Part shown: positions 35,067 to 35,763 of the stretch, in pieces | Layout of the letters: each line of letters starts with the position of its first letter | Position numbering within the stretch: position 1 is the stretch's first letter | DNA from: Clostridia bacterium | GTDB taxonomy: Bacteria; Bacillota; Clostridia; TANB77; RGIG9151 | Assembly (NCBI GenBank): GCA_017934955.1 | Contig: JAGBIO010000013.1 | Coordinates: 1 to 49,515 of the forward strand | Length of the DNA: 49,515 bases | Direction: 5' to 3' | Program-made: the position numbers and the translations under genes | The notes under the pieces: model-generated | The model's input: the letters and a program-made list of their open reading frames with translations, nothing else | Databases searched by the model: none | What the model was told of the DNA's origin: nothing

Positions 35067-35102
35067 ATAAAAAAACATCGGCCGTGTAAATTCGACCGAT
35101 GT
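35067..35102 (-). terminator. Terminator of the c-di-GMP tandem RNA
   Basis: Minus-strand stem ACATCGGTCG/CGGCCGATGT (one G-T pair) followed by seven T residues. Confidence 0.85.
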
Positions 35103-35579
35103 CTTTATATAATTCAATCCGAAAAACCGAACATAACTCAAATTTTAGAGCTTTTTTGTTTTGATGATGTTTCTTTACGGCATCCCCCTCCTTCATTCCG
35201 CCGAAAGGACTAACCCTTTCTCACGTCACAAACAAGTCCAATACAGAAACAACATAAGCTCATTCCGCTCCCCGCGTTGTTGTTACCTCCTAAGCCTCCG
35301 TGCTAACTTAATCTTATCGATTAACCAGCCTCCGTGCTTATTCCGGCCAACTCGTCGTTTCTCAGACGACTTTACCGCGCCAAAGCTTCCTTCACTTACT
35401 AATAAGCCCTTCAAGCTCCGCGTCGCTGAAACCTCCTAAACCTCCGGCTAACCTAATCGCAACGATTAAATCAACTCACGTGCTTATTTTGGCCAACTCG
35501 TCGTTTATCAGACGACTTTACCGCGTTATCGCTTCCTTCGCTTATGCTTGGAGATAAAACCCCAAGACTTCATCATCAT

Positions 35580-35618
35580 CCAAAACAAAAACTCCGCTTT
35601 GGTTACCCAAGCGGAGCA
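35580..35618 (-). terminator. Intrinsic terminator directly after the aptamer
   Basis: Minus-strand stem CTCCGCTTGGG/CCAAAGCGGAG with a TAA loop, followed by TTTTTGTTTT. A likely expression platform for the riboswitch. Confidence 0.85.
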
Positions 35619-35635
35619 TCATTTTTCATAGCTCT

Positions 35636-35728
35636 CGACTTCGGCAACCCGGCTTCCATAACCTTTCGGCTTTAGGACCGTAGCTTTGCGCCCCAACCTT
35701 TCGATTGGTTTGCCATTTCGGATCTCAT
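35636..35728 (-). promoter_or_regulatory. c-di-GMP-I (GEMM-I) riboswitch aptamer
   Basis: Read on the minus strand: GGCAAACC, a stem capped by a GAAA tetraloop (CCAATC-GAAA-GGTTGG), GGGGCGCAAAGCTACGG, CCTAAAGC (tetraloop receptor side), then GGAAGCCGGGTTGCC. All conserved blocks of the class I cyclic di-GMP aptamer are present in order and spacing. It senses the second messenger that the PilZ protein nearby also binds. Confidence 0.9.
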
Positions 35729-35734
35729 AATATT

Positions 35735-35763
35735 ATTATATATAAAGTTGACATAAAAGTCAA
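35735..35763 (-). promoter_or_regulatory. Promoter of the riboswitch RNA
   Basis: TTGACT (35758-35763), 17-bp spacer, TATAAT (35735-35740) on the minus strand; the start is predicted near 35728, immediately before the aptamer. Confidence 0.85.

Follow-up and report, generated by a model that had tools for sequence, protein, structure and literature searches.

A class I c-di-GMP riboswitch that very likely governs a stand-alone structured RNA in a family of Clostridia

Very few riboswitches are known to have a trans-acting RNA as their output, and EutX/Rli55 is the worked-out case. In Enterococcus and Listeria, an AdoCbl riboswitch lies upstream of this RNA, which acts in trans by sequestering EutV (PMC5821096). 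Ligand yields a short terminated RNA and read-through a longer one that carries sites for the regulator protein, and the unit is free-standing, with no fixed place in the genome (PMC5821096). The merRNA of Bdellovibrio bacteriovorus, which has been proposed as a c-di-GMP store, is a free-standing, lineage-restricted non-coding RNA that contains a c-di-GMP riboswitch and has no downstream ORF (PMC3627812).

We analyzed a locus of an uncultured, flagellated, gut-type Clostridia bacterium that has features in common with both RNAs. It lies in a 49,515-nt stretch of DNA, the whole of which is referred to here as the window. The locus has the defining arrangement of EutX/Rli55, a riboswitch terminator followed by a non-coding RNA, and that of merRNA, an aptamer-containing free-standing non-coding RNA without a downstream ORF. 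It differs from EutX/Rli55 in its ligand (c-di-GMP, not AdoCbl), in its proposed partner (CsrA, not an ANTAR protein) and in having no linkage to a target operon; it differs from merRNA in having a terminator-antiterminator between the aptamer and the structured RNA. The aptamer class is the same as in the c-di-GMP-I riboswitches that Clostridia place before flagellar and other operons, but those lead mRNAs. The window RNA may also resemble the CsrA antagonists CsrB/CsrC, RsmY/RsmZ and McaS in its GGA predicted to be accessible, with two spaced sites that suit one CsrA dimer. In contrast to these sRNAs, it has fewer high-quality sites, its host is a fliW-containing member of the Clostridia, and its production would be set by a riboswitch rather than by BarA-UvrY/GacSA. 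We found no description of a c-di-GMP riboswitch with a terminator-controlled RNA output, and no riboswitch-controlled CsrA antagonist in the titles and abstracts of the literature searched (partial coverage).

Architecture of the locus and its downstream RNA

All elements of the locus lie on the minus strand of the window. A sigma-A type promoter (TTGACT-17-TATAAT, 35763-35735; 11/12 consensus matches) is followed by a class I c-di-GMP (GEMM-I) aptamer at 35724-35640, which matched the Rfam c-di-GMP-I covariance model (RF01051) over its full length (model 1-87) with 82.9 bits (E = 6.1e-15), well above the gathering score of 35. Two intrinsic terminators were identified by reading and folding the sequence; a simple terminator scan listed neither. 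The first, T1 (35616-35582), consists of a hairpin at 35616-35592 (-15.3 kcal/mol) followed by UUUUUGUUUU, and the second, T2 (35106-35069), combines a hairpin at 35106-35071 (-18.8 kcal/mol) with a trailing U run. The ~480 nt between them hold no credible gene. Some 300 nt past T2 lies a co-directional marR gene (Pfam MarR, 34763-34311), preceded by a separate promoter-like site (TTGACA-17-TAAAAT, 34830-34802). A PilZ protein (Pfam) is encoded at 30704-30150, and the window's genome encodes one GGDEF (diguanylate cyclase) domain. A dispersed high-copy palindrome, GACAGCATnnATGCTGTC, occurs at 22 places in the window (e.g., 34910, 34950, 35868 and 35936); it is part of a longer interspersed repeat with copies on both sides of the RNA gene.

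The RNA between the terminators (35590-35070), which we call type A, is highly structured: the T1-T2 stretch folded to -170 kcal/mol compared with -135 kcal/mol for shuffles (z = -5.65; 0/100). In the predicted fold, it is closed by a long helix (35590-35571 / 35169-35153) whose 5' arm starts within the T1 U-tract. Inside lies a tandem duplication of 128-nt units that are 81% identical across 128 nt (unit 1, 35418-35544; unit 2, 35272-35398), the second of which bears both CsrA-like sites discussed below. Three copies of the repeated helix preserve 97.9% of its pairs and show two compensatory changes, compared with 11-47% preserved in slid controls; this covariation rests on only three sequences, and 52/500 column shuffles gave equal counts. 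The body of the type A RNA diverges fast between species. The longest block identical between the window RNA and its ortholog in a sister species is a 19-nt element, AATGAAGGAGGGGGATGCC (also written AAUGAAGGAGGGGGAUGCC; 35197-35179), in which an SD-like GGAGG is followed by AUG, with a mini-ORF that is not conserved. The same element resembles the complement of the 16S rRNA 3' end. GGAGG is the most over-represented motif, occurring 6 times in the window RNA versus 1.1 expected from shuffles (0/500), 3 versus 0.6 times in the sister RNA, and 3 versus 0.6 times in the type B RNA of G002, a genome of a related genus (see below).

A preliminary description, made from sequence alone, had claimed the promoter, the class I aptamer, both terminators and the gene-less interval, as well as a nearby PilZ protein and a promoter of marR's own; all of these held, the last as a promoter-like site. 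It had overlooked the tandem duplication and the position of the T1 U-tract within the closing helix. Its alternative of an RNA for tiny peptides was not supported: candidate mini-ORFs are not conserved, no reading frame is conserved between species, and short SD-preceded ORFs are not a feature shared with the ortholog. Homology to a decayed protein gene, which it had named as refuting, did not appear in Pfam searches of the longest ORFs between the terminators. The Rfam covariance-model search that it had suggested returned nothing credible except c-di-GMP-I, either at E <= 10 across the locus or at E <= 1 across the related loci; the window RNA had no credible match to Rfam sRNA families of the CsrB/RsmZ kind (E <= 10).

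Recurrence in related genomes

We compared the window's genome (G000) with those of a sister species (G001, rumen MAG Tb.RUG.527) and of another genus of the same family (G002, goat-rumen MAG RGIG3495, 94% complete). The promoter-aptamer-T1-structured RNA-T2 design is present at 6/11 GEMM-I aptamers in these three genomes. Four of the aptamers belong to G000: two lead ordinary genes (L006 and L016), and the window locus and a second one (L002, G000:C27) have the switch-RNA design. The sister species carries one ortholog of each (L003 and L004); G002 carries a type B relative (L007) and a further RNA of ~680 nt (L010). By sequence, the RNAs fall into three types, A (window and L003), B (L002, L004 and L007) and D (L010). 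Fold z-scores of the five downstream RNAs tested were -5.7, -7.4, -6.1, -5.1 and -4.0 (range -3.95 to -7.4).

The type A RNA has different flanking genes in G000 and in G001; in the sister species, it is followed on the opposite strand by what we take to be an rpmB-like short gene. Because the neighbouring genes differ, type A very likely behaves as a free-standing RNA gene, its expression being inferred, and because the ortholog adjoins other genes, the window RNA is very unlikely to be a marR leader.

The type B RNA, at L002 1676-2135, L004 455-290 (-) and L007 1450-1085 (-), is conserved across the family and has the core CUUUCGG..CCCGAUGGG..GUAG plus a covarying stem. A GGAGG-GGAUG core recurs in the type B RNAs, and a gene that we take to be flbD-like lies downstream of the one in G001. 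Type D (L010 1450-785 (-), ~680 nt) contains a repeated 20-mer, GACGAAACATATGGAGTAGC, and has no Rfam match.

The promoter regions of the six switch-RNA loci share a further feature. In the window, the -35 box sits inside a TTGACWTTTATGTNNAC element (35763-35747), and a similar element is common to all six. The exact pattern occurs 5 times in the three genomes, 4 of them at switch-RNA promoters; the fifth match, in G001 (L126), looks coincidental. The element is partly palindromic across the -35 box and nearly confined to switch-RNA promoters, and it is possible that it is an operator.

Outside this family the design was not seen. In a sample of the wider class, 0/59 GEMM-I loci lead a terminator-bounded structured RNA, and an order-wide and class-wide aptamer survey added none; ten loci considered as candidates (L018, L033, L030, L040, L092, L099, L107, L113, L120 and L077) lead ORFs or precede a convergent gene and were rejected. 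A covariance model of the type A helix run against 287 genomes of the order matched only in G000 and G001, and the type B model run against 391 genomes of the class matched only in G000 (the draw did not contain G001 and G002), so that type B was not found outside the family in these searches of sampled genomes. Exact-pattern scans of viral contigs gave no match for the type A 19-mer or the aptamer subtype; five viral-contig matches to the type B motif failed the type B model.

Competing pairings of the aptamer strands

The 3' strand of the window aptamer, GGGUUGCC, is predicted to pair also with the arm and loop of T1, forming an antiterminator. When the RNA was folded in silico as far as the T1 loop, pairing probability was >=0.98 at 7/8 GGGUUGCC positions. 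The corresponding GGGU(U/C)GCC pairs with the T1 5' arm and loop at 6/6 loci, most positions reaching >=0.95, and this pairing is kept although loop and arm sequences vary among the six. In the predicted folds, then, expression platform and bound aptamer exclude each other at every locus. For type A, full-length folding favours the antiterminator (-23.8 versus -15.3 kcal/mol in the window; -19.5 versus about -11.8 kcal/mol for the terminator in the sister species). In types B and D, the terminator ends up more stable, and the outcome therefore hinges on folding order. Neither the bound aptamer nor T1 can coexist with the antiterminator pairing, and c-di-GMP should therefore cause termination. 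We conclude that the locus very likely encodes an OFF-switched stand-alone RNA; this is a structural inference, and expression, c-di-GMP binding and the response to it are all inferred.

The preliminary description had proposed that a structured RNA is made when T1 is overridden. The six loci, the context of the ortholog and the antiterminator support this part of it, with expression inferred, and the search for homologues beside other GEMM-I aptamers that it had suggested returned six loci of this design, spread over three species.

A second pairing would involve the aptamer 5' side. UCCGAAA precedes all six aptamers of the switch-RNA type and is absent from the ordinary aptamers of these genomes. 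In the window, the 5' leader AUCCGAAAU (35715-35723) has its predicted partner at 35125-35116, where sequence comparison revealed a conserved distal element, UUUUCGGAUU (35116-35125), complementary to it. In types A and B generally, the leader is complementary to a conserved element of the downstream RNA (e.g., AAUCCGAAAGGGC / GGCUCUUUCGGAU in G002). Against shuffles, the leader-distal match was significant for type B (1/300, 9/300 and 0/300), whereas type A (147/300 and 65/300) and type D fell short of significance; an ordinary control aptamer (L014) also reached 4/300. It is possible that such a helix, itself inferred, would occupy the aptamer 5' strand in the read-through RNA. A leader AUCCGAAA complementary to a downstream CUUUCGGAU element occurs at the window locus, L002, L004, L007 and L051. 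The last, from Pullulanibacillus camelliae, has a GEMM-I aptamer, a terminator and a ~300-nt leader ahead of a small ORF that we take to resemble the sporulation inhibitor Sda; the match of its leader was significant (8/300).

CsrA-type sites, proposed mechanism and rival explanations

Two CANGGAGG sites are present in the window RNA, 34 nt apart, and two in its ortholog, 40 nt apart. In the window, both sites are CACGGAGG (AGC-ACGGAG-GCU), at 35329-35336 (no. 1) and 35295-35302 (no. 2), and unit 2 reads UAAGC-ACGGAG-GCUGGUUAAUC..GAUUAAGUUAGC-ACGGAG-GCUUA; the ortholog reads GUUAGC-AAGGAG-GCUAG..UAUAGC-AGGGAG-GCUAAC. The SELEX consensus for CsrA is RUACARGGAUGU (PMC7652899). The RsmE form of the consensus has the core CANGGANG, and this CsrA/RsmE core is matched by four loops, namely CACGGAGG (twice), CAAGGAGG and CAGGGAGG. 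Two CANGGANG sites per type A RNA were reached by only 4/500 and 0/500 shuffles, against a background of 0.14 per kb (window only, not the whole genome). Both spacings fall within the 10-63 nt that one CsrA dimer bridges (PMC7652899). The CsrA idea arose after the sequence had been inspected and is thus post hoc.

Accessibility of the sites was less uniform. In the window RNA, 9/17 GGA were predicted to be accessible versus a shuffle mean of 3.6 (0/30), and these include just one of the two CACGGAGG sites; no. 2 was not called accessible. For the ortholog, 2/8 were accessible versus 1.2 in shuffles, with 10/30 shuffles reaching two, and the two are exactly its CANGGAGG sites. By simple counting, total GGA density was not above that of dinucleotide shuffles. 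Covariation supports a single helix with the two ANGGAG strands opposed as an internal loop, not two separate hairpins. In both species, each ANGGAN hairpin of the type A RNA is a full CANGGANG match. Types B and D have no ANGGAN hairpins and therefore either play a different role or share with type A a function that is not CsrA-related.

Both species with the type A RNA encode the proposed protein partner. The csrA and fliW genes are adjacent (csrA-fliW operon) in G000 and G001, CsrA (G000:C34) being 77 aa long. In a fliW-containing member of the Clostridia, the FliW protein is the known kind of CsrA antagonist. G002 had no CsrA or FliW match; an assembly gap is possible, as adjacent genes are easily lost together. 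That genome has 14 flagellin matches, and its flagellin leaders carry CsrA-type sites. Most flagellin leaders examined in the three genomes (L056-L063) have CAAGGAGG over the SD and a CANGGANG site ~40 nt before the start codon, the sites often being C-closed ANGGAN hairpins. In B. subtilis, CsrA is proven to block translation of hag through this paired-site layout (PMC7652899), which has also been predicted for C. difficile fliC (PMC8523840).

Architecture, recurrence, competing pairings and CsrA-type sites are shown by computation, and the mechanism that we propose on top of them is inferred. At low c-di-GMP, the GGGUUGCC strand would pair with the T1 arm and loop, T1 would fail to form, and polymerase would read through to give a structured RNA of ~660 nt ending at T2. 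At high c-di-GMP, the bound aptamer would retain GGGUUGCC, T1 would form, and a leader of only ~145 nt would be made. The long RNA would act in trans, binding CsrA dimers at its paired ANGGAG sites. CsrA would then be titrated at low c-di-GMP, the motile state, and flagellin mRNAs would be relieved of repression. Low c-di-GMP is generally linked with motility, and the model agrees with this. CsrA binding, flagellar output and expression are all inferred, and we lean slightly against the chain from switch to titration holding in full.

The strongest rival accepts the OFF-switched stand-alone RNA as real and has it work by another route, the CsrA-like sites being incidental. The RNA could base-pair with mRNAs, its GGAGG-rich loops and conserved AAGGAGGGGGAUGCC element could pair with the 3' end of 16S rRNA, or it could serve structurally or as a catalyst. 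The over-represented, SD-like GGAGG is compatible with a ribosome or anti-SD role, the longest identical block is the 19-nt element, the GGAGG-GGAUG core is found also in type B, and the switch-linked B and D RNAs lack ANGGAN hairpins. Against this, every ANGGAN hairpin of type A is a full CANGGANG match, and the same site is used by the flagellin leaders of these organisms. We judge this rival narrowly more doubtful than probable.

The other explanations are all very unlikely. The RNA could be a merRNA-like c-di-GMP reservoir, an abundant aptamer RNA with its downstream part as ballast, and merRNA, a 445-nt free-standing riboswitch RNA without a downstream ORF, offers a precedent (PMC3627812). 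However, a passive sink has no need of the terminator-antiterminator that is conserved at six loci, and the RNAs that follow it show structure and conservation of their own. Alternatively, the transcript could serve as an extended 5' leader for marR and the ABC transporter genes, or could encode tiny peptides. The co-directional marR ~300 nt after T2 and the SD-like GGAGG ahead of AUG within the 19-nt element favour this reading; T2, the separate marR promoter-like site, the opposite-strand short gene that follows the sister-species RNA and the unconserved peptides (MP* versus MPRENVA*) argue against it. Finally, a decayed gene or mobile element, now functionless, could have been captured behind a real riboswitch, as the dispersed palindromic repeats in which the genome is rich, present on both flanks of the locus, and the rapid divergence of the RNA body would allow, but the compensatory changes in the repeated helix, the 19-mer identical across species, the six-locus recurrence and the lack of a Pfam match speak against it.

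If the CsrA-titration model is correct, a CsrA antagonist would be made under riboswitch control in a bacterium that possesses FliW as well; a 2020 review lists the joint action of FliW and an sRNA on CsrA as undetermined for any species (PMC7652899). It is possible that this is the first case of c-di-GMP-gated CsrA titration, a step that is inferred without binding data. A bolder reading, likewise no more than possible, is that the c-di-GMP riboswitch governs a CsrA-titrating RNA and that at least three RNA types (A, B and D) stand behind one switch, making c-di-GMP-gated RNA genes a regular output of GEMM-I aptamers in this family. Such a system would link c-di-GMP directly to flagellin translation, and in a fliW-containing member of the Clostridia the second messenger would be wired to Csr through RNA.
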